IMG/VR virus record: IMGVR_UViG_3300020183_006562
Span: 1 to 38,008 of that record
DNA from: a virus
Length of the DNA: 38,008 nucleotides
Strand: one strand, 5' to 3'
Made by a program: the position numbers and the translations under genes. The notes beneath the pieces are model-generated. The model was not told the DNA's origin. It did not search any database and saw only the letters and a program-made list of their open reading frames with translations. Positions 22,517 through 37,786 of this stretch are shown piece by piece. Position 1 is the stretch's first letter; each line of letters opens with the position of its first letter.

Positions 22517-23707
22517 TTAAATTTTGTAATCTTTACTTTTAATTTTAATTGGCCCATTAAATATATTTTCATCTTGGAACCAATTTTTCCAATGTTTTTT
22601 TTCATCATTGAAAAGAGACTTATACATCATACGGTGTTCTTCGCTGCCAGGCAAATCTGAGTCATAATACCATAAATCTCTGTTGCCCCAAAATGTTGAT
22701 ATTTCTTTTTTGTTATAGTATTTTTCATCATTTATAAAAATTTTTGGATAAATCAATTTTTTAAAAGGTTCATAATCCCATACTCGAAAACTTATTTGTC
22801 CTGGCTGTTTTTTATTGAGTATTGTGAATTCTTTCATACCGTATAATTTTTCAACAACACCATTAACTTTTTCAATAAAAAATTTTTTTGCTAGATGTGC
22901 CTGTTTTATCAAAATTTTGGCACATGTCTCGGTTGGGGCCCAATAAAAAAATTCCAGAGTATCTCTATTATTTTTATGAAGTATTTGTCGTATTGGTGTC
23001 ATATGTCCCTGAGCATACGAATCAAAAAAATTGTGTATCCACATATTTTCTTTATAAACGTGTCTTGGCATCACGGAGTCAACTCCATGCAAGGTACATA
23101 ACGTTTTTTCCTTTTTTAATACTTTCTGCCAATCATCTATATACTCATACATCACATCTAGGGCTAATCTGTTGACACTTAAACGAGGACCAAACAAATA
23201 GATAGGCTCAAGGTTCAAATTAAGATCCCTTATAATTTTAGGCCAATTACAGATAATGTCACCATAATCAAATCTCCTAATTTTGATTTGTGGATATTGC
23301 TGTTCGATTTGAGCAAGTTTTTTCCATGTAAAATCTTTTAATTCATGATATTGATGACCTGTCGTATCGTATCTACTAAAGAACACGCATATCTCATCGG
23401 GATATATGCCATTGTCTAAAAAAGCACGAAGCATGTTAGTGCTGTCAAATCCTCCACTGTAATAGATCACAATGTAATCATATTGCTCTCTCAATTCTTC
23501 AGCTCTTTTTTTATATAATTGATCCAATGTTGCCGTGGGTTCTTTCGACCAGTCGAACTGAGAAAAAAATTTATCATTATATATCCATTGTATCGGTTTG
23601 TATGGGTGTGGATTTTTTTGATAATAATCCATTAACTGATAGATGCTATAAGTTTTGAAATTTCCAAATTGGTAGTATCCGTATTGATCTATGTTGGGCT
23701 GATTCAT
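22517..23707 (-). CDS. PP-loop ATPase (asparagine-synthase-like), paralog A
   Basis: The PP-loop YYSGGFDST (S84-S89) binds ATP pyrophosphate in the AsnB, QueC and GMP-synthase superfamily, which adenylates a carboxylate or carbonyl. The N-terminal 75 residues (YGYYQFGNFKTYSIYQLMDY, then WIYNDKFFSQFDW, and LYKKRAEELREQYDYIV) are shared with three other genes here. There is no glutaminase domain as in AsnB, so ammonia or another amine must come from elsewhere. Further family motifs are FFYWAPTETCAKILIKQAH and WGNRDLWYYDS. A late-like TAAATAT core precedes the start (nine bases). It is a close paralog of the gene at 34112, including DNA-level blocks. The substrate is unknown. Confidence 0.8.
   Translation of the reverse strand: MNQPNIDQYGYYQFGNFKTYSIYQLMDYYQKNPHPYKPIQWIYNDKFFSQFDWSKEPTATLDQLYKKRAEELREQYDYIVIYYSGGFDSTNMLRAFLDNGIYPDEICVFFSRYDTTGHQYHELKDFTWKKLAQIEQQYPQIKIRRFDYGDIICNWPKIIRDLNLNLEPIYLFGPRLSVNRLALDVMYEYIDDWQKVLKKEKTLCTLHGVDSVMPRHVYKENMWIHNFFDSYAQGHMTPIRQILHKNNRDTLEFFYWAPTETCAKILIKQAHLAKKFFIEKVNGVVEKLYGMKEFTILNKKQPGQISFRVWDYEPFKKLIYPKIFINDEKYYNKKEISTFWGNRDLWYYDSDLPGSEEHRMMYKSLFNDEKKHWKNWFQDENIFNGPIKIKSKDYKI
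22881..22966. repeat. Near-identical DNA block shared with 34470-34555
   Basis: In paralog A this 86-base block differs from 34470-34555 in paralog D at only four positions by my reading. A second block, 23388-23518, is also highly similar to 34989-35119. The sequence between them is more diverged. Confidence 0.7.
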
Positions 23708-23783
23708 ATAAAAAAATATTTAGTGCTTGGTTTTACATATCAAATTTTTATTTTGGTAATCATTTTATGCATAACTAGATAAA

Positions 23784-24842
23784 ATGACTCAATTGGATCT
23801 GCGTTGGAATTTTAGAACATCGGAACAGGATAAACATTTTTTTTGGAAGGGTGTGAAATGTTTGGGAATGTTAGCAGACCTAGCGTCGGGTCACTGCCAC
23901 GTGCCCTATCCTCCCAACGATAATATTTTTGTTATTGGAGATGATCTTAAACAAATTTTCTATAATGCCTGTCCTCACAAATATTCACAATTATATAAAT
24001 CTTCCTGTGATGTCAAAGATAGAATTGTATGTCCTGTACATCGATGGTCCTTTGATCAACAAGGAAACTTTTTAGCCGGAAGAGGGTTTACCCCTTCGAC
24101 AGATAAAAATCTTGTTAGGTCAACGGCATTCAAATGGCAGGGACTTATCATGACCGGCAACAGTGATTGGATTGACAGCATCAATGATAAACTCAAACAA
24201 GATCTGACACGTTTTCAAGGAAAGAACTATAGAGTATGGAAGAGAGAAACCATCGTGTCTGACTATGATTGGAAGATATTTTATGAAATCTTTCTAGATC
24301 TATATCACGTGAGATCCTGCCATCCAAGTCTGAGAAGCGTGGTTGATGTCAACAACTATCAATACGCCTTTGGCGACGGTTGGAGTTGCCAGCATGCCTA
24401 TCTAAATGAAGTCAGAGCAACGACCACAAAGAAGACCGAAGATTGGCTAGAGGCCTGTGAGCGATTGAGATTACTGGATGATTCATTCAAACTGCTTTGG
24501 TTGGCTCTGTACCCAAATGTCATGCTGGAGGCATACCCCGGATGCAATGTTATAAGCCAGGTGTATCCTTTAAGTCCAGGACGGCACGCAAATACAGTGG
24601 AATTTTATTTCGATGAAAATATTTTAAAAGAGTGTCCGGAATTTGCTCAGCTGACCTACGATTTCTGGATGGAAACTGCTGTTGAGGATGAGCAGATCAG
24701 CAGATTAATGCAGGTTGGCAGAAGCAATCTTTTGAGAGATATAGAAAAGGTCCAAGAATTTAATCATCCAATCGAAGAGATGGCAAACGCACACTGGTTC
24801 AAATGGATGAAAGAAAAAGAATTATCACACAAACCAACTTAA
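23784..24842 (+). CDS. Rieske non-heme iron oxygenase, alpha-subunit type
   Basis: The Rieske 2Fe-2S motif is complete: C63-P-H65, 17 residues, C83-P-V-H86. The mononuclear iron site of ring-hydroxylating oxygenases is also present (D172-L-Y-H175-V-R-S-C-H180, preceded by DWKIFYEIFL), with acidic residues near 308 (ETAVEDEQISR) where the third ligand lies in the family. The length of 352 aa fits a full alpha-type subunit. Such enzymes insert oxygen into, or demethylate, small organic substrates using electrons from a ferredoxin or reductase, which is not encoded nearby. The substrate is unknown. It is the first gene of a four-gene unit with a second Rieske, a PP-loop and a small protein. Confidence 0.9.
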   Translation: MTQLDLRWNFRTSEQDKHFFWKGVKCLGMLADLASGHCHVPYPPNDNIFVIGDDLKQIFYNACPHKYSQLYKSSCDVKDRIVCPVHRWSFDQQGNFLAGRGFTPSTDKNLVRSTAFKWQGLIMTGNSDWIDSINDKLKQDLTRFQGKNYRVWKRETIVSDYDWKIFYEIFLDLYHVRSCHPSLRSVVDVNNYQYAFGDGWSCQHAYLNEVRATTTKKTEDWLEACERLRLLDDSFKLLWLALYPNVMLEAYPGCNVISQVYPLSPGRHANTVEFYFDENILKECPEFAQLTYDFWMETAVEDEQISRLMQVGRSNLLRDIEKVQEFNHPIEEMANAHWFKWMKEKELSHKPT

Positions 24843-24849
24843 TAAATAT
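24842..24849 (+). promoter_or_regulatory. Late promoter core before the second Rieske gene
   Basis: ATAAATAT lies at 24842-24849, just after the upstream stop, and eight bases before the ATG at 24858. It could start transcription within the unit. Confidence 0.4.
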
Positions 24850-24857
24850 TTTACATC

Positions 24858-25733
24858 ATGTTTCTAGGCCACATCAACGATTTACGAGACAACGAATGGA
24901 AAGTTTTACCACACCTAAAACGTTGGACCTTGCATCGTAATAACGGAAAATATTCTTTGCTAAGCAACGTCTGTCCACACCAAGGATCCTTGCTTAAAGG
25001 CATGCAAGGAAAGAACGCTCGCCTCTGCCCATATCATGGATGGAGTTTTGATAATAAGGGAAATCCCATGGGTTCGGGAACCACAGATTATTGGTGCAAG
25101 AATGAACATCCTTTAGACACCAGAGATGTTTTCATATGGAATAATTTTGTATTTTCTGAGCATCCAGATCTACCGGAATATGATTTTTTGAATACAGAAC
25201 ATCTCACATTAGGCAGCTTCAGAATTGATACTGTCAAGGCCAATTACAAAAACATTTACAGTATCTTTTTAGATATAGATCACCTACCGGTGGTACACCC
25301 AAAGGTATATGATCAATTGCAGACCAGTCAGGTGGAATGGTCCATAAGAGAAAAAAGCAATATTCAACTGGCCCCTAATAACCGCCAGTACGAGAGCGAC
25401 TACACCAAATCCATGTTCTTGGAAGACAGAGAAAGAAAGTATGGAGCGGCATGGTTCGCAGTCTATCCCTACACCACTGTGGAATATTTTCCGGGAGCCT
25501 GGATCAATTGTGTGTTTCTCCCAATGTCAGATAACGAGACGGCAATATCCGTGTATCAATACAGAGATACGAGATATTCAGAAGAGAATTGGCGATTGAA
25601 TCTAGAAATTTGGGAAAAGGCCTGGGAACAAGACAACGAACAGGCAACATTGATCGACCCAATATTCAAACCAACCCTGCTGGAACCCGCCAAAGCACAC
25701 TATCTAGAATGGATCAACAAGAATGGATGCTGA
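24858..25733 (+). CDS. Rieske non-heme iron oxygenase, second copy
   Basis: The Rieske centre reads C39-P-H41, 15 residues, C57-P-Y-H60. The catalytic iron site is FLDIDHLPVVHP, with H142 and H147 and the bridging acid D139. The length of 291 aa is shorter than the first copy (352). It has a distinct sequence rather than being a recent duplicate, so the two may form a hetero-oligomer or act on successive substrates. The 3' end overlaps the PP-loop gene by 11 bases, which links oxygenation with the adenylating step. No reductase or ferredoxin is seen beside it. Confidence 0.9.
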   Translation: MFLGHINDLRDNEWKVLPHLKRWTLHRNNGKYSLLSNVCPHQGSLLKGMQGKNARLCPYHGWSFDNKGNPMGSGTTDYWCKNEHPLDTRDVFIWNNFVFSEHPDLPEYDFLNTEHLTLGSFRIDTVKANYKNIYSIFLDIDHLPVVHPKVYDQLQTSQVEWSIREKSNIQLAPNNRQYESDYTKSMFLEDRERKYGAAWFAVYPYTTVEYFPGAWINCVFLPMSDNETAISVYQYRDTRYSEENWRLNLEIWEKAWEQDNEQATLIDPIFKPTLLEPAKAHYLEWINKNGC

Positions 25734-26655
25734 CTGGAAGCAAGGCAGTTTTTGTAAAGATGGATGGATTTCCTATCGTTGGAATCGCACGCCCGAGAAT
25801 CCCTACCCCAAGCACGACTTTGAAATTTTTTTCAATCCGCCAGCCCCAACAAAATTGTTATCAATGGAGGAAGCGGCGATCAAAACTGTAGAAGATATCC
25901 TGCAGCAATACAGAGATAAAAAAATATTCCTAGCAATGAGTGGAGGCATAGATTCCGAATATATTGCTGAAATACTTCGCAAAATGCAAATAAGTTTTAC
26001 TCCTATTATTGTACATGTTGAACAATATAATCAAGTAGATTATCAATGGGCACACAAATGGTGTGATAAGAATGATACTAAGGCAATAGTGTATGAATTG
26101 TCCTTATCTCAATATATGTTACATAGCATCAATCGCTGCATAAAGTATTACACAAGAAGAGCACAAGCGGCTTCAATCATAGAAGTAAGTGCAAATATAG
26201 CAAGAGAAAATAACGGAGTGTTGATTGCAGGGTGTGGTACTCATGAATTATATATACCAGATCCTATTATGTCTTTAGAGGCTCAAGATTTAACTTTGAA
26301 AAATAAAATAGGCTACGTTTTTAATGAAACAGATTTAATTAAACATTTTGTTGCCCCTGATATGCCTACAATGTTTTATAATTGGTCTCCCGAAATTACA
26401 CTTGCTTACATACATGCGAGAAATCCAAAACTTACTACAGAAGAAAACAGGGTAAAACTTTTTGGATGTGAGTATCGCCCTAAATATGGAGTAATCACGA
26501 CCAGTTGGAAAAAAAATCCCGTTGATGCCAAAAATCCCTATTACAAAAGCATTGTGTATGTGGGATCTCTTCATTCAGGGCTAGGGTCTTCCGATTCATA
26601 CTATCTGGGTACGACCGAAAATCTTATGAAAATATTGAAACATGAAAACATTTGA
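25723..26655 (+). CDS. PP-loop ATPase, divergent type (paralog E)
   Basis: The PP-loop is AMSGGIDSEY (S73-S78), followed by a nucleotide-binding strand-helix pattern (FTPIIVHVEQYN). Unlike the four minus-strand paralogs it lacks the YGYY-type N-terminal module and the later FYW and GxRDxW motifs, so it is a distant member closer in style to AsnB C-terminal domains or QueC-like enzymes. A cysteine-containing stretch, VLIAGCGTHELYIPDP, may hold an active-site residue. It overlaps the second Rieske gene by 11 bases at the start and the small gene at 26642 by 14 at the end, so it belongs to one unit. The substrate is unknown. Confidence 0.8.
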   Translation: MDADWKQGSFCKDGWISYRWNRTPENPYPKHDFEIFFNPPAPTKLLSMEEAAIKTVEDILQQYRDKKIFLAMSGGIDSEYIAEILRKMQISFTPIIVHVEQYNQVDYQWAHKWCDKNDTKAIVYELSLSQYMLHSINRCIKYYTRRAQAASIIEVSANIARENNGVLIAGCGTHELYIPDPIMSLEAQDLTLKNKIGYVFNETDLIKHFVAPDMPTMFYNWSPEITLAYIHARNPKLTTEENRVKLFGCEYRPKYGVITTSWKKNPVDAKNPYYKSIVYVGSLHSGLGSSDSYYLGTTENLMKILKHENI

Positions 26656-27010
26656 ATTTCTTCATTTTGACTTTAAAATTTATCCTTACAATCCAAAAGA
26701 TAATAATACTTCTTATATTGTAATAAAATTCAATAACAATATTATTTTGGAAGAACCTGTAAAACATTATGAAAAAATATTCAAGGTCTATTTTAATCAA
26801 GAATGTGCATTTCAAAAACATCAACTGAGTATTTTTAGTAAAAATAACCATTGTGAATTAGAAGTAAAAGATTTTCTATTAATGGGGGGAAAATTTGATA
26901 ATCTAGAACAAGAACAGTTAAAATCTTATAAAGATAATGGTATATATACCTTTGAATTTGAATCCCCTTATGCCTATTATTTTTTAAAACGTTTTAAATT
27001 AAATTTCTAA
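26642..27010 (+). CDS. Small AT-rich hypothetical protein (122 aa)
   Basis: The protein is rich in Phe, Lys, Asn and Tyr (FEFLHFDFKIYPYNPKDN, then YIVIKFNNNIILEEPVKHYE) and looks beta-strand rich. It has no conserved motif that I recognise. The start overlaps the PP-loop gene by 14 bases. The end overlaps the convergent PP-loop gene at 26999 by 12 bases. It may be a partner or substrate carrier of the Rieske and PP-loop enzymes, but that is inferred only from position. It is among the most AT-rich genes in the window. Confidence 0.6.
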   Translation: MKTFEFLHFDFKIYPYNPKDNNTSYIVIKFNNNIILEEPVKHYEKIFKVYFNQECAFQKHQLSIFSKNNHCELEVKDFLLMGGKFDNLEQEQLKSYKDNGIYTFEFESPYAYYFLKRFKLNF

Positions 27011-28279
27011 ATAATGCCTTTCTGAACAAAATACATCTATACTAAGATTTCTAAAATCAACAGAAGAAGGCACTTTGGATCTTATATGTTCAGGTAGTGC
27101 AGGTACATTTTTAGTAAAATTATTACGATGCCATTTAAAGTTATGAAAACCCCATAAATCAAATTTTTTGTAAATGCTCTTTATGGCACCAATGAACCTA
27201 GTTTGATCATCGGCTCTGTGTGCTTCCCACCACCAGCGATCTCTTGGGCCAAATATATATCCTATGTTTTTTCCTACTGTAAATGTGCCTTCTTTCCAAT
27301 CGGGATAAATTAATCGATTCAATCCATCTGGTGTCAAATAATACATTTTATTATTAATTTTTGTTGCTGGTCTTCGATATGAATAAGGCACATATTCACC
27401 ATTATAACCAAGTACCCAGTTGTAAGGATCGCTGGTCAGATATCTGGAGTCTAAGTCTTCTTTGGGCGGATTTCTTAGATAATTTTTTACTATATGACCT
27501 TGTCTGGCAAGGATGTCTATTGAATCTGTAGACCAATAAAAAAATTCATCATTGTCTTCTTTTCTATTCATCATTTGTATTCTAGGACCAACACCGTTGC
27601 CATCGATAATATCAAAAAATTCTATATAATATTTGTTTTCTGTCTCGTCATACATCACAGGAGGTTTGTCGGCCCCCCAAACAAAACATAGTTTTTTTCC
27701 ACTGGCGATGATTTTTGCCCAATCAGAAATTTTTTCTCTTACATAGGTGCGAGCAAGTTGGTGAGGACCAAATGAATGATTAGATTTATATATAAAATCA
27801 AATTTGTTGTGATCTTCATTAAAAACCGATTTAATAATGGGGGTGAGATCAACCAGTCGATGTTTGGTATTTGGCATCACATTTAAAAATTCTTGTGTCT
27901 GCGGTATGGCTACTGTCTTAACTTCTATGTTTAGATAGCTGTCCCAGGTCTTCTCTCCCTCATGGGCATGGAATTGAGCGATTTCGTCCACGTGTAGGTT
28001 GTTTTCTCGAAAAGTGTTTAAGACTGTAAAACTATCCACTCCGCCACTGTACCAAATTACGATGTAATCATATTTCTTTCGTATCTGTTCTGCTCTTTGC
28101 TTGTAGAGTTTTTTCAAATTCTCCTGTGTGTCTATGTGCCATGGATGTTTGGAAAACACGTCATCATTAAAGATCCACTTGACGGGAGTACGAACTAGAT
28201 GTGCATATTCAAGTGCTTCAATTTTGCTGTAGGTTTTTAAACTGCCTACCAGATAATACCCAAAGTGATCTTTGTTCAT
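26999..28279 (-). CDS. PP-loop ATPase, paralog B
   Basis: The layout matches the other minus-strand copies: FGYYLVGSLKTYSKIEALEY, WIFNDDVFSKHPWH, LYKQRAEQIRKKYDYIVIW, and the PP-loop YSGGVDS (S78-S83). Later motifs are KLCFVWGADKP, FFYWSTDSIDILARQGH and FGPRDRWWWEA. The true start is taken as the ATG at 28279, because the two residues further upstream need a TTG. It is not closely similar to copies A and D at DNA level. It stands downstream of the transporter genes on the same strand, separated from them by a strong hairpin, and could be a part of that unit or independent. Confidence 0.8.
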   Translation of the reverse strand: MNKDHFGYYLVGSLKTYSKIEALEYAHLVRTPVKWIFNDDVFSKHPWHIDTQENLKKLYKQRAEQIRKKYDYIVIWYSGGVDSFTVLNTFRENNLHVDEIAQFHAHEGEKTWDSYLNIEVKTVAIPQTQEFLNVMPNTKHRLVDLTPIIKSVFNEDHNKFDFIYKSNHSFGPHQLARTYVREKISDWAKIIASGKKLCFVWGADKPPVMYDETENKYYIEFFDIIDGNGVGPRIQMMNRKEDNDEFFYWSTDSIDILARQGHIVKNYLRNPPKEDLDSRYLTSDPYNWVLGYNGEYVPYSYRRPATKINNKMYYLTPDGLNRLIYPDWKEGTFTVGKNIGYIFGPRDRWWWEAHRADDQTRFIGAIKSIYKKFDLWGFHNFKWHRNNFTKNVPALPEHIRSKVPSSVDFRNLSIDVFCSERHYLEI

Positions 28280-28327
28280 AAACAAAATTACTTATAATTT
28301 TAAAGGGAGACTGTGATTTATTTGTAG

Positions 28328-28354
28328 ATCATAGGCGTGTGACACGCCTATGAT
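28328..28354. terminator. Perfect long palindrome, terminator or processing hairpin
   Basis: A 13-base arm beginning ATCATAGGCG pairs perfectly with its complement around a single G (28328-28340 with 28342-28354). It folds as a stable hairpin directly after the transporter operon stop. The T-run on either side is weak, so it may act as a processing or stabilising element as much as a terminator. Confidence 0.55.
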
Positions 28355-28366: not shown

Positions 28367-29218
28367 TTAATTGTATGTGCCGTAACGTCTTGCGGTGGCA
28401 ACAAATTTATCAACATCCACCTTGCCTGGTGCAATTTTACTGCCAACCATGTCTTGCTGAATCATTGTTTTTTCAAAATCTTTTTGTAATGATTTTTGTA
28501 ATTTATCCACTTGTTCTGAAGATAGGTTCTTCGCAAACACCATCATACCTAATTTGTAATCATTAAGATCACTTTTCTCAACAAAGGAGCTCAATGTTTT
28601 TTGTCCATATTTCGTATCTCCGGTGGTATACAGACAGTCAATGGAACCTGCCTTGATTGCCGTGCTGGCGTTTCCTGTTGCTGTATAGGCAACGTCTATT
28701 TCTTTGTTGAGCAATCCTGTAACTGCAGCGGACGAGCTATCATAGGTCACGTCGGTGAACTTTATGCCCATCTTGTTCTTATTCAACTCGTCTCTGATGG
28801 TTCCTCCCGGATTGAATTTATTATTGCCCAATTTATAGGTTCTGTTTGATTCTAGCTTCGTACCTTTCAGCACACACACTTCATAAGGCGCATAGGTTAC
28901 TGCTATCGGTGCCGCTTTTTCAAAATTGATTATGCAATTTTGCTTGGTGACATTTGTGTTCTTGATCATACTATCTGACCATACGATGGCAACCGGTCCC
29001 TTGGCATTTTCAAAATAGTCAACTGCTTCACCACAACTGTTTTTTTGTGTGGCAGTGATCTCAAAGCCTGCTGATTTAGACAAATCTATCACAGCGTTGG
29101 CAACAACACCCTGTGGTCCTTTCAGTGTGGAGGTTGGTACTATCTCAACTTTCTGTGCCATGGCTACATTACAAGATAATATAAACAAGCCCAATAAAAG
29201 TATTGTAATTTTTTTCAT
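28367..29218 (-). CDS. TctC-type periplasmic solute-binding protein, copy 2
   Basis: A cleavable signal peptide is clear (MKKITILLLGLFILSCNVAMA, cut before QKVEIVPT). The mature part follows the Bug/TctC family pattern of tripartite tricarboxylate transporters: KGPQGVVANAVIDL, NSCGEAVDYF, LNKEIDVAYTATG and CLYTTGDTKYGQKTLS. Four cysteines are conserved with the second copy at 30542 (in SCGEAV, NCIINF, VCVLKG and DCLYTT), suggesting two disulfides. The length of 283 aa is slightly short (usual about 300-330). It lies 18 bases after a TctA-type gene, and the start has AAGGAATA upstream. The ligand, normally a carboxylate, is unknown. Confidence 0.75.
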   Translation of the reverse strand: MKKITILLLGLFILSCNVAMAQKVEIVPTSTLKGPQGVVANAVIDLSKSAGFEITATQKNSCGEAVDYFENAKGPVAIVWSDSMIKNTNVTKQNCIINFEKAAPIAVTYAPYEVCVLKGTKLESNRTYKLGNNKFNPGGTIRDELNKNKMGIKFTDVTYDSSSAAVTGLLNKEIDVAYTATGNASTAIKAGSIDCLYTTGDTKYGQKTLSSFVEKSDLNDYKLGMMVFAKNLSSEQVDKLQKSLQKDFEKTMIQQDMVGSKIAPGKVDVDKFVATARRYGTYN

Positions 29219-29236: not shown

Positions 29237-30529
29237 TCAGTTAAAATAAATTTGTATTACTCTGAGGGTTGTGTTATATATCTCGTCAGTGAGCAGTAAA
29301 CCCACAACCACAGTTAACAAATCTACCTGATATTTATAGAACAGGTAACTCACTGGTAAAAATATTGAGCAATGAATTAATAGATATTTTATATCATATG
29401 AGTTGGCGAAATAGAAAACAGCAAGGCTGGTAAAAAATAATGAGTATGTGACTAATCTTTTTTGAATCAATTTTACAAGTGCAACGTAATATCTTTGATT
29501 TACTGATGTGGCCAACATATAGTAAATTATTCCGCTTATCAATAGACACCCAATAATGATATAGACTGTTGTTTGATCTTTCACAAAAGAAAATGTTAAA
29601 TTAAATTTTTGGAAATATTGTACCAAGACTAGTTCAGAAGCTGTGAGAGGCACGCCAAACACTAGCAATGGCAACCACCCAATGATCGCTGCACTATTAT
29701 TGCTAGTTTCGCTAGCAGTGATCTTTTTTAAAGTGTTGCTCTTTCTAAATTTTTCAAAAGCATATGAAACATAACTGCTTATAGTTGAACCCAGCTGTGG
29801 TACCAATCCCACAACACAGCCAAAAATACTATGTATTGAGATATTACCTAGATATTTTCTGATATTAAAATTTTTAATGTTTCTGTCTACCTTAGTATTT
29901 TGTATGGTTGCACCATTATACCATAACAGTTGGGAGATAAAAATTATTATTAATATCAGCTGATTATTAAAATAGTAGATTGGGGTTGTGGGCAAATAAT
30001 TCCTGGCCATAGTAGCCAACTCTGGATAGAAATTGATAAACGTTGCAGCAAGTAATAAAAAAATATTCATAAAAAACTTTCGTTTGCTGAATATCGCCAT
30101 GAAAACTAATACATAAAAAATAAAAATTTTCAACAAGATAGGGAAATGTATATGTTTTGATACATCGCCGTAGAGTATGAAAAATAATATAATGCAGGAA
30201 ACCACAGTAGCAATTAAACTACCCAAATTGGTCAGCATCACTGCGGTGAACATGTCCCGTGTCTTTAAATTATTGATCTCGATCAGTGTGGGATATGAGC
30301 TGGACTCCCCTGGTATTCTAAGATAAAGCACTGCTATACTGCCAAAGAACTGTGATCCCATCCTCGATATGATTCCATATAATACTATGCATAATGGATC
30401 AAGCGGAACCAAAGGAAGAAATAGAATGAACCCTAAAATTATAGTGATTCCCGGAATCAGTCCAACGACCATGCCAGATAACAAGCCAATAAAGACCGCC
30501 TGTATAATAGGAATTATTTCAAGGACCAT
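29237..30529 (-). CDS. TctA-type membrane permease, copy 2
   Basis: The large membrane subunit of a tripartite tricarboxylate transporter is recognised by VFIGLLSGMVVGLIPGITII followed by LGFILFLPLV in the N-terminal half, and by the second-half element GLVPQLGSTISSYVSYAFEK and ASETSNNSAAIIGWLPLLVF. These resemble the two TctA hallmark regions. About ten hydrophobic spans are visible. The length of 430 aa is shorter than the usual about 500. No TctB gene is seen. The sequence is more AT-rich than the first copy. It follows the TctC-like gene at 30542 by 12 bases in one transcriptional direction. Confidence 0.75.
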   Translation of the reverse strand: MVLEIIPIIQAVFIGLLSGMVVGLIPGITIILGFILFLPLVPLDPLCIVLYGIISRMGSQFFGSIAVLYLRIPGESSSYPTLIEINNLKTRDMFTAVMLTNLGSLIATVVSCIILFFILYGDVSKHIHFPILLKIFIFYVLVFMAIFSKRKFFMNIFLLLAATFINFYPELATMARNYLPTTPIYYFNNQLILIIIFISQLLWYNGATIQNTKVDRNIKNFNIRKYLGNISIHSIFGCVVGLVPQLGSTISSYVSYAFEKFRKSNTLKKITASETSNNSAAIIGWLPLLVFGVPLTASELVLVQYFQKFNLTFSFVKDQTTVYIIIGCLLISGIIYYMLATSVNQRYYVALVKLIQKRLVTYSLFFTSLAVFYFANSYDIKYLLIHCSIFLPVSYLFYKYQVDLLTVVVGLLLTDEIYNTTLRVIQIYFN

Positions 30530-30541: not shown

Positions 30542-31408
30542 CTAGTCAAGATGTTCAGCAGATTTCGCTCTCTTTATAAATTCTGAAATTTGATCTTTGG
30601 ATGGAGAAACCGTGGTGACGTCGATACTTTGTAAGAACAATTTTTCTGCCAGCGGTTGTATTGACTCCAAAAGTTTTTTTTCATCCGCGGCAGTTAAATT
30701 CTTCACGGCGAACATAAACGAAACGCTTTCGTTATTGACGAACGAATCTCTGCCTGTGAATTCTTTAAGAGGTTTCTGTTGGAATCTCGAGGAACCTGTG
30801 CTGTACGGGCAGGAGATAGCTCCCCTCTTTATCGATTCCGCTGCCACGCTCAGGGACAGCAGACCCACATCTATGTCTTTGTTCACCAGTGCCTGTAAGA
30901 CTTCATCGCTGCTGTTGAAGAGCACGTGCTTGAACTGCGCTACCAACACGTTGTCGTTCATTTCTTTGGTGATGGCGTTGTAGGGGCTGAATCTGACGAC
31001 ACCCAATGTGGCCACCCTGTTAGTAGGTATACTGTTGCCGTGCTTGGTGCACACTTCCTGCGTGGCGTGTGTGATAAACATAATTTTTGCCGAATCAAAA
31101 TCGTCCACCATGCAGTCTTGGTTGGATAGCCTGGACAGACGATACTGATTATGAGATATAAGAATTGCGGCCGGTGTGCGATCATTCTTGAATTTTTGCA
31201 CAGCGCTGCCGCAGTTCACACTGTGTATGGGGTTGATCTTGATGTTGCTTGGTTGTGCCAGCGCCGCCACTTGATTTGTGATAATCACGCTAGGGCCCTT
31301 GCTGGTGAGATAAGTTTGTATTTCAGTGGCTCTCAGTGAAGATGACACTGTCAACAAAGACACAATAAAAATTATGATAAGCGGCATGGTTTTAAAAATA
31401 TTTAACAT
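30542..31408 (-). CDS. TctC-type periplasmic solute-binding protein, copy 1
   Basis: A signal peptide precedes the mature start at about residue 28 (IIIFIVSLLTVSSSLRA, then TEIQTYLTSK). NCGSAVQKF, QDCMVDDF, EVCTKHGNS and ISCPYSTGSSRFQQKPL match the four-cysteine layout of the second copy at 28367. The ribosome site is very good (AAGGGG). It lies 12 bases downstream of the first TctA-type gene and 12 before the second, in a strict alternation of permease and binding protein. It is 288 aa long. The GC content is clearly higher than that of the second pair, so the two pairs do not look like a recent exact duplication. Confidence 0.75.
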   Translation of the reverse strand: MLNIFKTMPLIIIFIVSLLTVSSSLRATEIQTYLTSKGPSVIITNQVAALAQPSNIKINPIHSVNCGSAVQKFKNDRTPAAILISHNQYRLSRLSNQDCMVDDFDSAKIMFITHATQEVCTKHGNSIPTNRVATLGVVRFSPYNAITKEMNDNVLVAQFKHVLFNSSDEVLQALVNKDIDVGLLSLSVAAESIKRGAISCPYSTGSSRFQQKPLKEFTGRDSFVNNESVSFMFAVKNLTAADEKKLLESIQPLAEKLFLQSIDVTTVSPSKDQISEFIKRAKSAEHLD

Positions 31409-31420: not shown

Positions 31421-32698
31421 TCAAAAATAAATTTGGTATAGCTGCATGAATGTAAAAAATATTTGATTGCTTAACAACAGACCCACAGTGATTACCAATA
31501 GGCTGGTGCCCAATCTATGAAATAACCAACCCAATGGTGCAAACACCAGCAGGTGCATCAACACCATGTCAAGCCCAAAATTATTCATACTGGCATAGGT
31601 GAGCAGGCTGAGCAATATCACCGCAGCACTGAACAGGGGATTGGTTATGAATCTGCTCAGCGCAAAGTAGAAGGTGCGATTGGTTTCAAGCGCTATCAAA
31701 AAATATAGTATGGCCGCCAGCAGGCACAGCAACATGGCCACGAGCACGTTTTTAAGCTCTAGCAGTGTTTGGATCGCGAATCCGTACTGATTGAAATGTT
31801 GTAGGAAGACAATTTCTATCGAAGTGATAGGCATTCCGAACACCAGCAATGGCAGCCAGTTAGACACCACGGCCGAGTTATTTGATGTTTCAGAAGCGGC
31901 CACTCTTGACAAGGACATCTTTCCACGCAGCTTCTCGATGCCGTAGCTAGCGTAACTGGCAACTGTGGCCCCTATTATCGGTATCAGGCCAAGGCACATA
32001 CCAAGAATGCTGTGTCCTATAAATTTTTTATACCATTTGTTAAGTTTCAGGGACTTGGTCCTGCTCACGTTTGCCGTGGTCACCTTCTTGACCGATAAGG
32101 CATTTATCAAGAAGTAAGATGAAAATAAAACTATCAATGAATACAGAGGGTCAAAGTAAAATATGGTCAGTCCAATCTTGACGTTGGCGGCAATATCGCT
32201 GTAATTGGCAAAGAAAACTATGATCGCGAAGCCCAGCAGGTTCCATACTATTTTTTTAAAAGGATAGAACAGCGCCAAGCCCAGTAGCAAGGCAAAAATT
32301 GTTGCCCTTACGTAGATAGGCAACACAACATAGGAAAATAATCCTGTAGGCAAGAGTACCATGACCAATGCCAGGGCAAGTGCTGTGGCGAATAAACTGC
32401 CATGCGTGGTTATTTCCACTGCCTTGTAGATTTTTTGTGGCGTGTTAAAGTGTTTGGCCTCCATGAGAACAGGAAAGCTGCTGGTTTCCCCGGACATCCG
32501 GTAATAGAGTGCGGCCTGGCTGCCAAAAAATTGCGATCCGATGCAGACAGTCATGGCGAATATCAACAGGCTGACAGGGTCATTGGAAACCAGTGGCAGC
32601 AATATTAGAAACCCTAATGTGGGAGTAACGCTGGGCATCAGTCCCACAAATACTCCGCCCAACAATCCTATCAACATGGCCAAAATATTTTCAATCAT
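31421..32698 (-). CDS. TctA-type membrane permease, copy 1
   Basis: The N-terminal hallmark is LIGLLGGVFVGLMPSVTPTL, and the C-half hallmark is GLIPIIGATVASYASYGIEK followed by VAASETSNNSAVVSNWLPLL. This reads like the family pattern of a gated loop with Gly, Pro and the paired Asn residues. The length of 425 aa is about 15 percent shorter than typical TctA. The ATG overlaps the stop of the upstream PP-loop gene (ATGA), which indicates translational coupling between a carboxylate-type transporter and a PP-loop ATPase. TctA normally needs TctB and TctC. TctC-like genes are adjacent, but no TctB-like small four-helix protein is found. Confidence 0.8.
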   Translation of the reverse strand: MIENILAMLIGLLGGVFVGLMPSVTPTLGFLILLPLVSNDPVSLLIFAMTVCIGSQFFGSQAALYYRMSGETSSFPVLMEAKHFNTPQKIYKAVEITTHGSLFATALALALVMVLLPTGLFSYVVLPIYVRATIFALLLGLALFYPFKKIVWNLLGFAIIVFFANYSDIAANVKIGLTIFYFDPLYSLIVLFSSYFLINALSVKKVTTANVSRTKSLKLNKWYKKFIGHSILGMCLGLIPIIGATVASYASYGIEKLRGKMSLSRVAASETSNNSAVVSNWLPLLVFGMPITSIEIVFLQHFNQYGFAIQTLLELKNVLVAMLLCLLAAILYFLIALETNRTFYFALSRFITNPLFSAAVILLSLLTYASMNNFGLDMVLMHLLVFAPLGWLFHRLGTSLLVITVGLLLSNQIFFTFMQLYQIYF

Positions 32699-33792
32699 AA
32701 GATGTAGTCCTTTGAAAGAGATCCTATCAGTCCTTTTTCATGAACACCATCGTTGAACCAGTTTTTTGGCAGTTCACACAGAGACTGATATATCTTCATT
32801 ATCTTGTGTCTGCTGTCAGTGTTGCTGTCATATAGCCACTGATCCCTGCTACCAAAAACATTTGATTGAGGTCTCCATGTGTAATATAGGTTTTCCTCAC
32901 ACTGGGGATAGACGATTCTTTGGGCGGGTACGTAGTCATGGTCCAGAACTGTGCCCAGATCTAAATTCTTGCGATTTTTAAAATGGCTGTTGATCAATCC
33001 TTTGTTGGACGACCAAAAATTTTTGAGCAACTGGGCCTGTTTGATTACTAGCTCTGGACAGCTCGGACTCCAATAGAACCATTCCACCCCGCTGTCCTGG
33101 ATGATTGGCCTGTTGGTATTGCCGATATCTGAAAAATTAAAGATAAACTTATCGTCTTTGAAACGCAGGCGTGGTTTCTCATGACCATACATGATTCCCA
33201 CATCAGACTCTCGATATTTTTTTGGCAGTTTTGATTTGATAAAAGATCTGCTGAGAGAATTGGGGGCTATGTATCCAGGTATGTAATACAAATACTCATC
33301 ATAGAGCTGTTCAATGATATTGAGAGACAAGTCTGTTAGATCTAATCTAATTAATTCTGTTTGTGGCACCAATGGCAAAAGTCTTTGTAGTCGCGGCCAT
33401 GTCTGTAATTGCCATTCCTGGTTGATGTCTGATTCTTTATTATCATGATCCACAGAGTAATAGAAACACACAACCGCGTCTAGATATATGTTGTTGTTTA
33501 CAAAAGTTTTTAAGATGTTGTTCGAATCAAATCCACCGCTGTATAGCAACACTAGATGTTTATATTGTGCCCGTAATTGCTCGGCTCTTTTTCTGTAAAG
33601 ATTGTTAATATCTACTTTGATCTCTTTTTTCCAGTCATATGATGAGAATATTTCATCGTGGAAATGATAAGAAGGTGAACCTTTGTATCTCTGTGCTAAT
33701 TCTAGCGCTTCGATTTTGCTGAAAGTTTCAACGATCTGTTGATTATGATTTACTCTATAGAAACCGTATTTTTTATCTACATAAAACATCAT
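32695..33792 (-). CDS. PP-loop ATPase, paralog C, first gene of the transporter unit
   Basis: PP-loop LYSGGFDSNN (S85-S90) is preceded by the same module as copies A, B and D (KYGFYRVNHN, FSKIEALELAQRYK, FHDEIFSSYDWKKE, LYRKRAEQLRAQYKHLVL). Later motifs are GIMYGHEKPRL, WFYWSPSCPELVIKQAQ and FGSRDQWLYDS. The gene stops inside the start of the TctA-type permease, so the two proteins are probably made together. A sigma70-like promoter with a palindrome over its -10 lies upstream. Possible function: activation of the imported carboxylate. The substrate is unknown. Confidence 0.8.
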   Translation of the reverse strand: MMFYVDKKYGFYRVNHNQQIVETFSKIEALELAQRYKGSPSYHFHDEIFSSYDWKKEIKVDINNLYRKRAEQLRAQYKHLVLLYSGGFDSNNILKTFVNNNIYLDAVVCFYYSVDHDNKESDINQEWQLQTWPRLQRLLPLVPQTELIRLDLTDLSLNIIEQLYDEYLYYIPGYIAPNSLSRSFIKSKLPKKYRESDVGIMYGHEKPRLRFKDDKFIFNFSDIGNTNRPIIQDSGVEWFYWSPSCPELVIKQAQLLKNFWSSNKGLINSHFKNRKNLDLGTVLDHDYVPAQRIVYPQCEENLYYTWRPQSNVFGSRDQWLYDSNTDSRHKIMKIYQSLCELPKNWFNDGVHEKGLIGSLSKDYIL

Positions 33793-33943: not shown

Positions 33944-33977
33944 ATAAAATTTTTCTAGACTTTTTACCACTTCATGT

Positions 33978-33983
33978 TATACT
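33978..33983 (+). promoter_or_regulatory. Possible -10 element for the tRNA gene
   Basis: TATACT (33978-33983) lies seven bases before the first tRNA base. Seventeen bases upstream is CTAGAC, a weak -35. The tRNA may have its own promoter. Confidence 0.35.
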
Positions 33984-33990
33984 TCAATAT

Positions 33991-34067
33991 GCACCCGTAG
34001 CTCAACTGGATAGAGCGCCTGACTTCGGATCAGGAGGTTGAGGGTTCGAGTCCTTCTGGGTGCACCA
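33991..34067 (+). tRNA. tRNA-Arg (anticodon UCG)
   Basis: The 77-base gene folds as a full cloverleaf. The acceptor arm GCACCCG pairs with TGGGTGC, followed by A and an encoded CCA. The D arm is GCTC/GAGC. The anticodon stem is CCTGA/TCAGG with the loop CTTCGGA, giving anticodon UCG (reads CGA and perhaps other CGN codons). The T arm is GAGGG/CCTTC with loop TTCGAGT. It is the only tRNA in the window. Confidence 0.95.
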
Positions 34068-34111
34068 AATAAGCAGTAGTATGAAGTATCTATATAAGAA
34101 CAATTAATAAT

Positions 34112-35299
34112 CTAAATTATATAATTTTTACTTCTAATTTTTTCATGACCTTTAGATATGTCACTGTCGTAGAAAAATCTTCTCCAATGACTTTTTTCCT
34201 TCTCAAAATGGGAAAGATGTATAGCTTTCCAATGTTCTTTCGCATTAGGCAAGGTTGAATTATAATACCATTGATCAACATTACCTATGGTAGCATTGTA
34301 TTCTTTATGTTTATAAAATTGTTCGTCACCACCACATAGTCTCGGATATATTATTTTTTTAAAGGATTCAATATTTTGATCAAATCTCATCATGATTGAC
34401 GGTCTTTTACTAATATATCCATGTACATTAATTAATTCTTGAAATTTTCCTTTCGACATTTCTGTATAAAATTTTTTTGCTAGATGTGCCTGTTTTATCA
34501 AAATTTTGGCACAAGTTGCGGTTGGGGCCCAATAAAAAAATTCCAGAGTGTCTCTGTCGCTCTTATTAGTCATCTGTCGAATTGGGCTCATATGACCATA
34601 CACATCCACATCATTAAAATTATGTGTAAATTCTTTCGTTAGAAAATTATATCTTAATTGCACAGCATCAACCGCAAAAACAGTACATAACTTTTTTTTA
34701 TCTTTTAATAACCGTTTCCAATCATCCAGCCATTCATATAATGTATCTGAAACCAATCGATGAATACTTAACCGTGGCCCCCAATAATAGATAGGATCTA
34801 AATTTAAATTTAAATAATCATTTGTGTCTTTAACAATTTTAGGCCAATTACAAACAAGATCGGCATTGTCAATTCTTCTAATTTTGATTTGGGGATATTG
34901 TTTTTTAATCTCCTCAAGTTTTTTCCAAGTTTTCCATTTTCCTTCGATATATCTATGACTGACAGTATCAAATCTGCTGTCAATTCTGCATATCTCATCT
35001 GGGTATATGCCATCGTCTAAAAAAGCATAGAGCATGTTAGTGCTGTCAAATCCTCCGCTATAATATAGTACAACGTAATCATATTGCTCTCTTAATTCTT
35101 CAGCTCTTTTTTTATATAAATCCTTTAAAGAGTCTACAGGTTCTCGAGCCCAGTCAAATTGAGAAAAAAAATTGTCATTGTATATCCATTTATAAGGTTG
35201 AGGATCTTTACCATAGTAGTCCATCATTTGATGCCTGCTATATGTTTTAAGATCACCTATTTGATAATAACCATACCTATCCATAAATGATGGTTGCAT
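34112..35299 (-). CDS. PP-loop ATPase, paralog D
   Basis: The module YGYYQIGDLKTYSRHQMMDY, then WIYNDNFFSQFDW and LYKKRAEELREQYDYVVLYY leads to the PP-loop SGGFDS (81-86). KKLCTVFAVDAV, FFYWAPTATCAKILIKQAH and IGNVDQWYYNS follow. It is very similar to paralog A, with long DNA blocks almost identical, so a recent duplication or gene conversion is likely. It is the last gene of the unit starting with the DUF3050 gene and follows the SDR gene by six bases. This couples an adenylating enzyme with two oxygenases and a reductase. The substrate is unknown. Confidence 0.8.
   Translation of the reverse strand: MQPSFMDRYGYYQIGDLKTYSRHQMMDYYGKDPQPYKWIYNDNFFSQFDWAREPVDSLKDLYKKRAEELREQYDYVVLYYSGGFDSTNMLYAFLDDGIYPDEICRIDSRFDTVSHRYIEGKWKTWKKLEEIKKQYPQIKIRRIDNADLVCNWPKIVKDTNDYLNLNLDPIYYWGPRLSIHRLVSDTLYEWLDDWKRLLKDKKKLCTVFAVDAVQLRYNFLTKEFTHNFNDVDVYGHMSPIRQMTNKSDRDTLEFFYWAPTATCAKILIKQAHLAKKFYTEMSKGKFQELINVHGYISKRPSIMMRFDQNIESFKKIIYPRLCGGDEQFYKHKEYNATIGNVDQWYYNSTLPNAKEHWKAIHLSHFEKEKSHWRRFFYDSDISKGHEKIRSKNYII
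34470..34555. repeat. Near-identical DNA block shared with 22881-22966
   Basis: This is the partner of the block in paralog A. It encodes the FFYWAPTATCAKILIKQAH region of paralog D. Confidence 0.7.
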
Positions 35300-35305
35300 A
35301 AAAAA

Positions 35306-35848
35306 TTATTTTATTGGATTGATTGCTATACCAATTTGTTGTATTCTAAACTTTTTTTGATCTAGGCAATAAATCAGGAAATCAGCAATGTCTGAAGGAT
35401 CTACTTTGCTACCGGACCAATGAGACATGCGTTCGGTGTCAGTGGCACAGGGTTTAAATAAAATTATGTGAGGCCAAGGATCTTTGTTCCAAAGAAATTC
35501 GCAGGCGTCATCCAATGCCAATTTCTCATTACGATATTTAGGATCTCTATTTTTGACGTCCCATCTCATGGTGATGCTGCTGCCCATATTAGCGATAATT
35601 TTTTGCTGTCCTCTCCAACTTTCTTGCAATTTAAATAAAAGATCTACTTGTGAAAATCCAGAGTGTGCGTTATTAATGAACAGATCGCAATTTTTTACTT
35701 GTTGAATAATTTTATCTTGTGTAGATTCATCGCCGATGTCCCATCCTTCACTGACATTGAAATCAATTATCTCATGACCTTTTTCTTTAAATTTTTTCTT
35801 TATTGAGTATCCGATTCCTCTAGAGGATCCTGTGATAGCTATTTTCAT
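35306..35848 (-). CDS. Short-chain dehydrogenase/reductase (SDR)
   Basis: TGSSRGIG (6-13) is the nucleotide-binding glycine motif. NNAH at 59-62 takes the place of the usual NNAG. A serine at 90 or 91 and Y105-x-x-x-K109 (KYRNEK) form the catalytic set. The length of 180 aa is shorter than the usual 240-260, so the substrate-binding part is reduced, but the active-site residues are retained. The reaction would be NAD(P)-dependent reduction of a ketone or oxidation of an alcohol. The start overlaps the stop of the upstream 2OG oxygenase by four bases (ATGA), so it is part of a biosynthetic-type unit. Confidence 0.82.
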   Translation of the reverse strand: MKIAITGSSRGIGYSIKKKFKEKGHEIIDFNVSEGWDIGDESTQDKIIQQVKNCDLFINNAHSGFSQVDLLFKLQESWRGQQKIIANMGSSITMRWDVKNRDPKYRNEKLALDDACEFLWNKDPWPHIILFKPCATDTERMSHWSGSKVDPSDIADFLIYCLDQKKFRIQQIGIAINPIK

Positions 35849-36435
35849 AACAAATCGCTAGGAATAGTTCTGTCAAAACTAATTTGTAGATTGAGTCTCA
35901 AACATTTTACGTTTTCAGTGCTGTGTAATATGCGTGTGTTAGTCAAATACCAAATGTTTGCAGGACCTTTGACACTATCAACAAGTTCCAATGACTCATA
36001 ATCACCACACTGGGTGGCACGCTCTCTGATTAATTCTTGTCCTTTTTCTTTCCAGAAAGCAAGTTCTGCTTCCTCACCACCAGTACGTAAGTTGTACATG
36101 AGCACATAGTCTCTAGTAAAATCCGTGTGTGCTCCTGTGCTGGGAGAACCTTCAGCGAAACCACTACCATGACAGTACATTAGGCTAGAATTTTGATAAT
36201 CTGCTGTGATATTTTCTTTAATCCATGAATCAAATACACTTTGGAATGGTTGCTCCACTCTACGCATATTTCTCAGTGCAGGACCGTTATATCCCTTCCA
36301 GTTGATTAATTCCCTTTTGCCCATTGTAGAAGTATTATTTGATTCAGGTTTCAAATCAAAATTAATTAAATCTATTAATTCTTGGGGAGGGTGCGGTAGA
36401 TTGTTATAAAGTTTGAATGTGAATGGTTTGTTCAT
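35845..36435 (-). CDS. Fe(II)/2-oxoglutarate oxygenase-like protein, copy 1
   Basis: The iron triad is H103-x-D105 (GAHTDFTRD) and H171 (ILHSTENVKCLR), with R180 as the 2-oxoglutarate-binding arginine. The surrounding pattern FTRDYVLMYNLRTGG is shared with the next gene upstream, so they are paralogs. The length of 196 aa is typical for small hydroxylases of this fold. The substrate is unknown: it could be a free amino acid, a peptide side chain or a nucleotide. It overlaps the SDR gene by four bases and lies eight bases after the second oxygenase gene. Confidence 0.8.
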   Translation of the reverse strand: MNKPFTFKLYNNLPHPPQELIDLINFDLKPESNNTSTMGKRELINWKGYNGPALRNMRRVEQPFQSVFDSWIKENITADYQNSSLMYCHGSGFAEGSPSTGAHTDFTRDYVLMYNLRTGGEEAELAFWKEKGQELIRERATQCGDYESLELVDSVKGPANIWYLTNTRILHSTENVKCLRLNLQISFDRTIPSDLL

Positions 36436-36443
36436 AGTTACTC

Positions 36444-37016
36444 CTAGTTAAACCAAATGTTATTGTTGATGCTGACTTGAAAACTCACACGTACTTTTTC
36501 AATGTTTTCAACTCCGTGCAGACACATGGCATTCAACAAGACCCATTTACGGAGAGGAAATTTTATTCTCTCCAACACACGAAGTTTGCTGAAATCATTA
36601 CACACTGCTTGACGTTGTGTGCGAATGATAGGTTGTCCTATTTCTTCATAGAACACAGTTTCTGTTTCCGGTCCTCCAGCGTCTAACAAATATAATAAAG
36701 TGAAATCTCTAGTTAAATCTGTGTGCGGGCCTTGATGTGTACCAAATCTGCCGTTGGTGAAACTCACACCGCAATCAAAGCCTTCCGGATGTATGTTTTC
36801 ATGTACCCAATCATAAAATTCTTTGTTGATGTCCATTCGAGTCTGATAGGTGACCGATTTTATCTCACCGTTGATGATAAGTTTGCGACTCTTGTAGGCA
36901 TCTGAGAGATTGTCCTCAGGACGATCGGTATCAGCATATTTCAGTGACTCAAGGGCCGATGTTATAAACTTTTCGGGAACATCAGGTAAATTTTTCAATA
37001 TCACGTGTGTGAACAT
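36444..37016 (-). CDS. Fe(II)/2-oxoglutarate oxygenase-like protein, copy 2
   Basis: The triad is H98-x-D100 (GPHTDLTRD) and H167 (CLHGVENIEKVR), with R176 as the probable 2-oxoglutarate ligand. HTD-x-TRD, the following hydrophobic strand and the GG turn are shared with copy 1, but the rest differs, so the two may perform successive hydroxylations. The length is 190 aa. It lies between the DUF3050 gene (11 bases upstream) and copy 1 (eight bases downstream) in one transcription unit. Confidence 0.8.
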   Translation of the reverse strand: MFTHVILKNLPDVPEKFITSALESLKYADTDRPEDNLSDAYKSRKLIINGEIKSVTYQTRMDINKEFYDWVHENIHPEGFDCGVSFTNGRFGTHQGPHTDLTRDFTLLYLLDAGGPETETVFYEEIGQPIIRTQRQAVCNDFSKLRVLERIKFPLRKWVLLNAMCLHGVENIEKVRVSFQVSINNNIWFN

Positions 37017-37027
37017 TATTAGTACCT

Positions 37028-37786
37028 TTATAATTTATGTATCAGCAATCTCACACTGTCCCAGAATGCTATCTTGTCATCTATGGCCTTGTGTGCGGCT
37101 TGTTGGGACAACCGTATTTTGCTACCATCGTTGTTGCAGAATGTGTCCACCAATATTATGGAAGCCGGACCGTGATCACCACTGTCCACTTCTATGTGTC
37201 GATTAAGCCAGGCATAAAATTTTGGAGCTTCCTGCTCTGTGATACCTAAACGTTTAACCATGTTCATGTACATGCCGGGGATGACAGTTTCCCTACCAAA
37301 TGCAAAAGCAGAAGCAATAACACACGGCTCTTCGGTGTTAATAAATCCAAAAGTGCTTTCCATAAATGCTCGACTGGCTGCTGGTACAACTTCCATTGAT
37401 TCGAACAATCCCTTGACTGTAACATTACGAACGAAATCCAATACAGGTTGTGGATCAGCACCAATCTCTCGCATGGCCTCGATATAGAGATCAAAATGAC
37501 TGACGTAGCGATCTCCAAACTGATCGCTTTCTTCGTCGAGTATGATTGAATTAATTAATCTAGCACAGCCGTTTTTTGTGTATTGCGAAGCGAACCACGG
37601 CACCGTGCTGGGAGCCACTAGCTGTTGTAATTTTTTAACCAAGCTCATGAAATCCCAAACACAGTAGACATGATGCTCCATAAAAATGGCCAACTGTTCT
37701 CGAGTGGTGATCACGTCTGTGGTCAATAGGGGATGATTTTCCAAACGTTGTTGATGTTCTCGTATGCGATCTAGATCCAATTTCAT
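37028..37786 (-). CDS. DUF3050 family protein (heme-oxygenase-like fold)
   Basis: The motif EHHVYCVWDFMSLVKKLQ (37-54), then LINSIILDEESDQF (78-90), SHFDLYIEAM (96-105), FGRETVIPGMY and RHIEVDSGDHGPAS match DUF3050, a family of the heme-oxygenase-like fold. The acidic and histidine residues (E37, H38 or H39, E85, E86, D88, H97, and the HIEVDSGDH block) are placed to bind a metal centre, as in the diiron oxidases of this fold. The length of 252 aa is normal. It is the first gene of the unit with the two 2OG oxygenases, the SDR and the PP-loop gene. The function is presumably oxidative, with unknown substrate. Confidence 0.82.
   Translation of the reverse strand: MKLDLDRIREHQQRLENHPLLTTDVITTREQLAIFMEHHVYCVWDFMSLVKKLQQLVAPSTVPWFASQYTKNGCARLINSIILDEESDQFGDRYVSHFDLYIEAMREIGADPQPVLDFVRNVTVKGLFESMEVVPAASRAFMESTFGFINTEEPCVIASAFAFGRETVIPGMYMNMVKRLGITEQEAPKFYAWLNRHIEVDSGDHGPASIILVDTFCNNDGSKIRLSQQAAHKAIDDKIAFWDSVRLLIHKL

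Follow-up and report, generated by a model that had tools for sequence, protein, structure and literature searches.

Putative metabolic cassettes centred on glutaminase-less PP-loop proteins of predicted asparagine-synthetase-type fold in uncultured phages

What might a phage do with five PP-loop genes set among oxygenases and transporters? The question is raised by IMG/VR virus record IMGVR_UViG_3300020183_006562, whose 38,008 nucleotides we analysed as a whole (the window); this is a complete 38-kb record and probably a piece of a larger genome. From about 22 kb onward G+C drops from about 0.42–0.52 to 0.33–0.43, marking the start of a gene island at positions 22,517 to 37,786. An initial annotation, made without database searches, had read the island as three linked metabolic blocks that may build amide- or amine-modified molecules from imported carboxylates. 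At roughly even odds (about 50%), we propose that it consists of exchangeable phage metabolic cassettes assembled round phage-specific ATP-pyrophosphatases, namely a family that we call PPL and its relatives PPb, PPc and PPd, by which acids would be captured, adenylated and joined to ammonia or an amine.

All five predicted SGGxDS PP-loop genes, beginning at 22,517, 25,723, 26,999, 32,695 and 34,112, were recovered, and the window's six frames contain the motif five times and no more, whereas 200 first-order Markov shuffles gave 0.045 on average. Four are paralogs of PPL, all on the minus strand: 22517..23707 (396 aa, SGGFDS at residue 84), 26999..28285 (428 aa), 32695..33792 (365 aa) and 34112..35299 (395 aa). 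The fifth, PPb (25723..26655, plus strand, 310 aa), is a second family of the same predicted fold. Homology among the PPL paralogs extends over most of their length; the 22517 and 34112 proteins are 57% identical, and the remaining two are 28–29% identical to 34112. The motifs quoted for the shared architecture of the four proved approximate: FYWxP reads FYWST in 26999, GxRDxWxY reads GNVDQWYY in 34112 and GPRDRWWW in 26999, and KTYSK reads ETFSK in 32695. PPb has, besides its PP-loop, a YNWSPE motif equivalent to FYWxP. Despite their 57% protein identity, the 22517 and 34112 genes share DNA patches that are 81–90% identical (22870–23036 with 34459–34625, and 23387–23518 with 34988–35119), a pattern for which gene conversion is possible.

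The PP-loop is strongly conserved. Across an alignment of 61 PPL members its Ser, Gly, Gly and Asp are each found in at least 60 and its final Ser in 59; Asp85 is present in 61/61, Asp or Glu fills a second acidic position in 61/61, and a C-terminal Lys or Arg occurs in 59. A near-invariant GxDKP motif, with Lys in 59/61, stands where asparagine synthetase has a GEGxDE-type motif, an equivalence that we presume from position; some PPd members retain a GEGGDQ-like form of the asparagine synthetase motif. The 26999 protein, with an intact GxDKP, is the window copy nearest the family consensus (profile E = 5.9e-110), and its closest relatives in the PPL tree sit in other viral contigs.

PPL had no family match in Pfam, NCBIfam or PHROG, and its profile gave chance-level matches only against PDB sequences. 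An AlphaFold model of the 34112 protein, built on the 61-member alignment, reached a mean predicted local distance difference test score (pLDDT) of 88.6 and a predicted template modelling score (pTM) of 0.91. Its best structural matches in the PDB were asparagine synthetases (Z = 10.5, 281 residues, root-mean-square deviation (rmsd) 5.4), with beta-lactam synthetase at Z = 9.5 and carbapenam synthetase at Z = 8.0; these matches cover 250–288 residues. NAD synthetases and LarE (Z = 7.7) came lower in the list. A PPb model built on 34 sequences (pLDDT 76) matched human asparagine synthetase best (Z = 14.1, 263 residues, rmsd 4.5), and the same families scored Z = 14.1 to 12.3. With asparagine and beta-lactam synthetases heading both lists, the models support an asparagine-synthetase-type ATP-pyrophosphatase fold for PPL and PPb, comprising the synthetase half only. 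Profile comparison with hhalign related PPL to PPb, PPc and PPd at 96–97% and PPb to PPc at 99%.

The likeness to known amide-forming enzymes extends beyond overall fold. With asparagine synthetase AsnB and the beta-lactam and carbapenam synthetases the phage proteins share the predicted fold over nearly the whole chain and the SGGxDS PP-loop, and with asparagine synthetase and its relatives the second acidic motif and the conserved C-terminal lysine. Sequence similarity to asparagine synthetase, in contrast, lies under the Pfam cut-off or is undetectable. A further relative is NH3-dependent NAD+ synthetase (NadE), likewise an ATP-pyrophosphatase and an amide-forming enzyme that needs no glutaminase. 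The PPb sequence profile matches it (3.6e-10), but over about 120 residues of the PP-loop region and not the whole domain, and the fold match is weaker than that to asparagine synthetase; the PPL profile gave no match to NAD synthetase.

The same data bear on whether the PP-loop proteins modify RNA or nucleobases, as TilS, TtcA, TtuA or QueC do. Weak PHROG matches to QueC-like and PAPS-reductase families would fit such a role, as would a tRNA-Arg gene inside the island (33991..34067, plus strand, TCG anticodon; ARAGORN and Rfam RF00005, 66.6 bits). tRNA thiolases, QueC and PAPS reductase, however, depend on conserved cysteines that bind Fe-S or Zn or serve in catalysis. The PPL alignment contains no conserved cysteine (highest column, 31% Cys), which argues against all three, and the partners of the family are solute-binding proteins rather than RNA enzymes. 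In the structural list for PPL, LarE, NcsA, TilS and PAPS reductase all rank below asparagine synthetase. Some LarE proteins use an Fe-S cluster; PPL, at Z = 7.7 to LarE, has no conserved Cys. A tRNA- or base-modification structure was what the initial annotation had named as evidence against itself, and the ranking, with the asparagine synthetase fold first for PPL and PPb alike, turned out to favour the annotation. We regard a tRNA-modifying role as unlikely, and RNA or nucleobase modification in general has, in our estimate, a very small chance of being correct. The tRNA-Arg gene, which lies between two minus-strand cassettes, is a possible recombination landmark.

Asparagine synthetase also has a glutaminase domain, and here the phage proteins differ from it. 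As the initial annotation had noted, none could be recognised in the PP-loop proteins with Pfam, NCBIfam or PHROG. The segment ahead of the PP-loop is too short for the glutaminase domain of asparagine synthetase, and several structural alignments start only at about residue 71–118 of the synthetases. Cys at position 2 occurs in 0/61 PPL and 0/34 PPb sequences, nor is it found in any member of the four PP-loop families. A separate GATase_6 gene was likewise found in 0 of 21 viral records of 38–357 kb, some of them fragments; all 14 control genomes gave one.

Is the island a single pathway? We compared it with loci (L-numbered below) that are stretches of viral contigs from IMG/VR scans; such records are fragments, and the locus sets of different scans overlap. 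Each of the three blocks was found alone elsewhere. L005 carries a PPL gene (87% identical to 22517; non-synonymous rate dN 0.07, synonymous rate dS 0.56) with the Rieske pair (89 and 95%), also beside the ribonucleotide reductase genes nrdAB. L026 has PPL-TctA-TctC-TctA-TctC in window order at 61–88% identity, the highest value being that of the 32695 protein, whose gene overlaps the adjacent TctA gene by 4 bases, and L165 has DUF3050-2OG-2OG-SDR-PPL in window order at 63–83% (2OG, 2-oxoglutarate oxygenase; SDR, short-chain dehydrogenase/reductase). In L006 the content of this same nrdAB-flanked site differs: 2OG, a nitronate-monooxygenase-like gene and PPL. Given this separation and the different content of L006, a single linked pathway, as first envisaged, is not supported; supported instead is an nrdAB-flanked site that collects PPL-centred cassettes. 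For most cassette genes dN/dS is about 0.1–0.15 in pairs with estimable dS; since synonymous change far exceeds non-synonymous change, these genes are being maintained under purifying selection.

The same observations would fit an explanation in which PP-loop, transporter and oxygenase genes are each useful by themselves and gather at a variable site beside nrdAB with no common pathway. The three blocks occur separately, the related phages L005 and L006 differ at the same site, and the G+C content of the island is below that of most of the window. What speaks against a purely random gathering is the preserved cassette order in L165 and L026 and, above all, the linkage of particular genes to PPL. 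To measure it, we clustered the genes round 80 PPL loci into families, named from Pfam matches of representatives and from purpose-built profiles, and merged near-identical contigs into 56 groups. In 31 of the 56 groups (11.4 on average under permutation), a TctC-type binding protein lies at most two genes from PPL; the corresponding figures are 14 (4.6 expected) for a nitronate-monooxygenase-like FMN protein and 8 (2.5 expected) for DUF2061. Linkage of 2OG and DctP is weaker (p about 0.013). Because these loci had been picked for PPL, we also searched in reverse, from the partners. TctC-first scans found a PP-loop gene at most two genes away in 11/11 and 34/47 groups, and DctP within two genes of TctC in 31/47; a DctP-first scan, with near-identical contigs left unmerged, covered 80 loci and found a PPd gene in 55 of them and PPL in 21.

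TctC neighbours are moreover scattered across all main branches of a 122-sequence PPL tree (58 of 122 rows); this FastTree phylogeny has some long branches, and we use it for the spread of neighbours and not for fine topology. The initial annotation had held that random variation of the neighbourhood would refute it; the neighbourhood recurs non-randomly across unrelated phages. With TctC–PPL, nitronate-monooxygenase–PPL and DctP–PPd linkages far above chance, in partner-first searches too, and a TctC–PPL association that spans the tree, we regard independent cargo as unlikely, though deserving the most weight among the alternatives.

A recurrent unit comprises PPL, a secreted TctC and a DctP from which the signal peptide has been lost. 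In the window itself the duplicated TctA/TctC set was found as annotated, in the form of two TctA permeases, a TctC below the Pfam cut-off and a divergent paralog of the latter. All four genes are on the minus strand. The N-terminus of TctC copy 1 (28367..29218; PF03401, E = 0.0026; 80% identical in L026) is hydrophobic in the manner of signal peptides; that of copy 2 (30542..31408), a protein 31% identical to copy 1, is hydrophobic too. The TctA genes (29237..30529, PF01970 E = 1e-35 across almost the full model; 31421..32698, E = 4e-36, 80% identical in L026) encode membrane permeases. Full-length TctA domains and TctC-like proteins with hydrophobic N-termini are features of tripartite tricarboxylate transporters; the phage set differs in its very divergent TctC and in that TctC elsewhere in phages mostly occurs without TctA. 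A TctA-based scan starting from the window gave no matches. Beside TctC and PPL in L079 (6918–7643), L083 (8007–8810) and L186 lies a protein of about 241 aa (cluster C25) with a possible 2OG/cupin HxD motif and no Pfam match.

DctP is not in the window. The phage form is clearly homologous to TRAP solute-binding proteins (4p47, E = 8e-42) and retains the invariant arginines of the fold, and a pattern scan found 436 relatives in viral contigs. TRAP binding proteins normally act outside the cytoplasmic membrane. By a hydrophobicity rule rather than a trained predictor, 1% of 67 distinct phage DctP genes whose 5' end is closed encode a hydrophobic stretch ahead of the first strand motif; for phage TctC the figure is 95% of 78. 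Phage DctP, differing in this from its TRAP counterparts, appears to stay in the cytoplasm. The order DUF2061–signal-less DctP–PPd, with one or two PPd copies, recurs in L129 (5705–9312), L113 (5336–8942) and L117 (5474–7988), and in L129 the set adjoins UvsX and DnaB genes of a T4-like phage. The few DctP matches in INPHARED (21–26% identity; mostly short contigs without annotation, plus one bacterial record) resemble ordinary cellular DctP and were set aside.

A DctP that lacks an export signal and yet keeps the TRAP-fold arginines would be expected if the role were anti-defence or signalling, with the binding proteins sequestering a small molecule intracellularly and the PP-loop enzymes producing or inactivating it. 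Many cassettes, however, including those of the window, have no DctP, the oxygenase sets appear metabolic, and among the recurring neighbours we recognised none devoted to defence (PADLOC not searched). We consider such a role improbable.

The oxygenases of the island were largely as annotated. Both Rieske non-haem iron oxygenases, on the plus strand, match PF00355 and PF00848 above curated cut-offs: 23784..24842 (PF00848 E = 6e-19, PF00355 E = 1e-7) and 24858..25733 (PF00355 E = 5e-9, PF00848 E = 4e-7). The 22517 PPL gene lies beside this pair. On the minus strand, a DUF3050 gene (37028..37786; PF11251 E = 7e-72, full-length at residues 15–245; PDB 9vwb E = 1e-47; 83% identical in L165) is followed by two 2OG-Fe(II)-oxygenase-like genes (36444..37016, 74% identical in L165; 35845..36435, 80%) and one for a short SDR-like Rossmann protein of 180 aa (35306..35848, 78%), the last with weak adh_short and 3-ketoacyl-reductase matches below cut-off. 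The 2OG-like proteins matched no Pfam model and no PDB sequence; their assignment comes from an HxD...H...R pattern in an 18-row alignment of relatives, in which H98, D100 and H167 are invariant and R176 occurs in at least 90% of rows. DUF3050 is a haem-oxygenase-like di-iron family (PMC4520260), to which MgoB of the mgo operon belongs (PMC3298696). The window protein shares Pfam family and di-iron fold with MgoB, but the phage has no non-ribosomal peptide synthetase or AurF-type N-oxygenase partner. An N-oxygenase function for DUF3050 by analogy with PvfB was rejected, as the mgo paper assigns MgoB to DUF3050 and MgoC to the AurF-type N-oxygenases. Marine viral contigs of SUP05 likewise carry tctA and a 2OG oxygenase, with dsrC, as auxiliary genes (PMC4164917); the portion of that paper considered here describes no PP-loop synthetase cassette.

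A second, partly overlapping PPL set contains a larger cluster made up of a nitronate-monooxygenase-like gene, PPc, PPL, DUF2061 or TctC, Rieske, PPb, a fatty-acid desaturase and hydroxylase, and radical SAM. Large viral contigs (L069:9024–15493, L059:9156–15571, L177 and L183) show a recurring series of nitronate-monooxygenase-like, PPL, DUF2061, Rieske, PPb, fatty-acid desaturase and PPb genes that resembles a small-molecule gene cluster. The desaturase and hydroxylase genes, with AMP-ligase, SDR and GNAT genes in the larger clusters and a UDP-glucose/GDP-mannose dehydrogenase family gene in the window (1639–2772), could instead mean that oxygenases and amide-forming enzymes alter the host envelope or virion glycans and lipids, for exclusion or adsorption. 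Among the families that recur beside PPL, however, no glycosyltransferase or acyl-carrier gene was recognised, and the recurring partners are solute-binding proteins; surface or lipid chemistry thus seems to us distinctly unlikely.

We return to the cassettes as carboxylate-capturing and amide-forming systems. In asparagine, NAD, beta-lactam and carbapenam synthetases ATP activates a carboxylate, and a nitrogen nucleophile displaces AMP. Most known ligands of TctC- and DctP-type proteins are carboxylates, which fits a carboxylate-activating enzyme. By this scheme, TctC, together with TctA where the phage encodes it, would take an organic acid from outside into the cell; PPL would turn the carboxylate into an acyl-AMP at the expense of ATP; and AMP would be displaced by free ammonia or by an amine in the same or another molecule, donors that we favour because no glutaminase is present in the enzyme or in any tested phage record. 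Rieske, 2OG, DUF3050 and similar oxygenases would then oxidise the substrate or the product. PPL copies that differ in their partners probably differ in the acid they use as well. We infer the adenylation, the amide formation, the substrates, the order of the steps and a benefit to the phage from the homology, predicted folds and linkage described above; the amide-type products suggested by the initial annotation are plausible.

Several observations weigh against this reading. A Z-score near 10 for the model tells the fold and not the reaction, and LarE, a sulfur-transfer enzyme, is close behind at 7.7. The 22517 and 34112 proteins deviate from the GxDKP motif, and their activity may therefore differ from that of the rest of PPL. 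Many PPL genes have no binding protein nearby, and linkage of Rieske, TctA, desaturase and radical-SAM genes to PPL was not significant by permutation over the 56 groups, a result that, for the first three, also suits the independent-cargo explanation. Finally, TctB was not recognised in the island beside the two TctA and two TctC genes; the window transporters may depend on the host, which could supply it.

The phage of the window groups, as judged from its ribonucleotide reductase (nrdAB, identified by sequence and gene order), a PAAR protein, a virion-structural match and a DUF6267 protein, with T4-like aquatic phages. The DUF6267 protein is closest to that of Pelagibacter phage HTVC008M (40% identity), followed by cyanophages and Methylophilales phages. 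An Rfam scan of the window found no riboswitch that could name a ligand, and promoter-like sites were no more frequent than in shuffles. A small open reading frame (26642..27010, plus strand; no Pfam family above cut-off) overlaps the 3' end of the 26999 gene, and a strong 12-bp hairpin, terminator-like on the plus strand, lies between the 26999 and 28367 genes (28328–28354). Outside the island and on the opposite strand, 13450–14748 encodes a radical-SAM protein whose relatives are multi-copy in several PPL-bearing phages, with no significant proximity to PPL.

How widely do these families occur? IMG/VR scans with two pattern sets returned 81 and 143 PPL-encoding stretches, partly overlapping, with one to five copies per record and some records of up to 357 kb; among the long records the terminase match is solid in seven and weaker in an eighth. 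No PPL relative turned up in either of two scans covering 84,980 species genomes of bacteria and archaea, although distant kin may escape the short conserved patterns used, and a protein-level search of INPHARED (50,697 phage records) gave no PPL, PPb or PPd. A structure search of viral models with PPL returned uncharacterised proteins of uncultured Caudovirales as top matches. As far as pattern searches can tell, PPL is a family of uncultured phages. The open-access literature, which leaves most subscription papers outside its coverage, contains no description of PP-loop/TctC/DctP phage modules; this and the absence of the PP-loop families from the phage records agree with the earlier view that the gene set has no described phage counterpart.

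A more tentative idea, to which we lend limited credence, goes further: a biosynthetic system restricted to phages, in which a PP-loop synthetase together with a secreted TctC and a cytoplasmic, signal-less DctP holding the captured or newly made acid would yield an amide-type product. Larger clusters would add Rieske, desaturase and radical-SAM steps, and phages would then carry small-molecule pathways. The binding proteins offer themselves as test objects, as their ligands would point to the substrates, and a DctP maintained without an export signal across dozens of phages poses a separate puzzle. Individual host-like metabolic genes are a familiar part of phage genomes. In the present case, enzyme families found in no searched bacterial genome are present at as many as five copies to a contig, accompanied by recurring partners, and, if the proposed chemistry is true, would represent viral small-molecule chemistry without a described host counterpart, widespread in uncultured aquatic phages.

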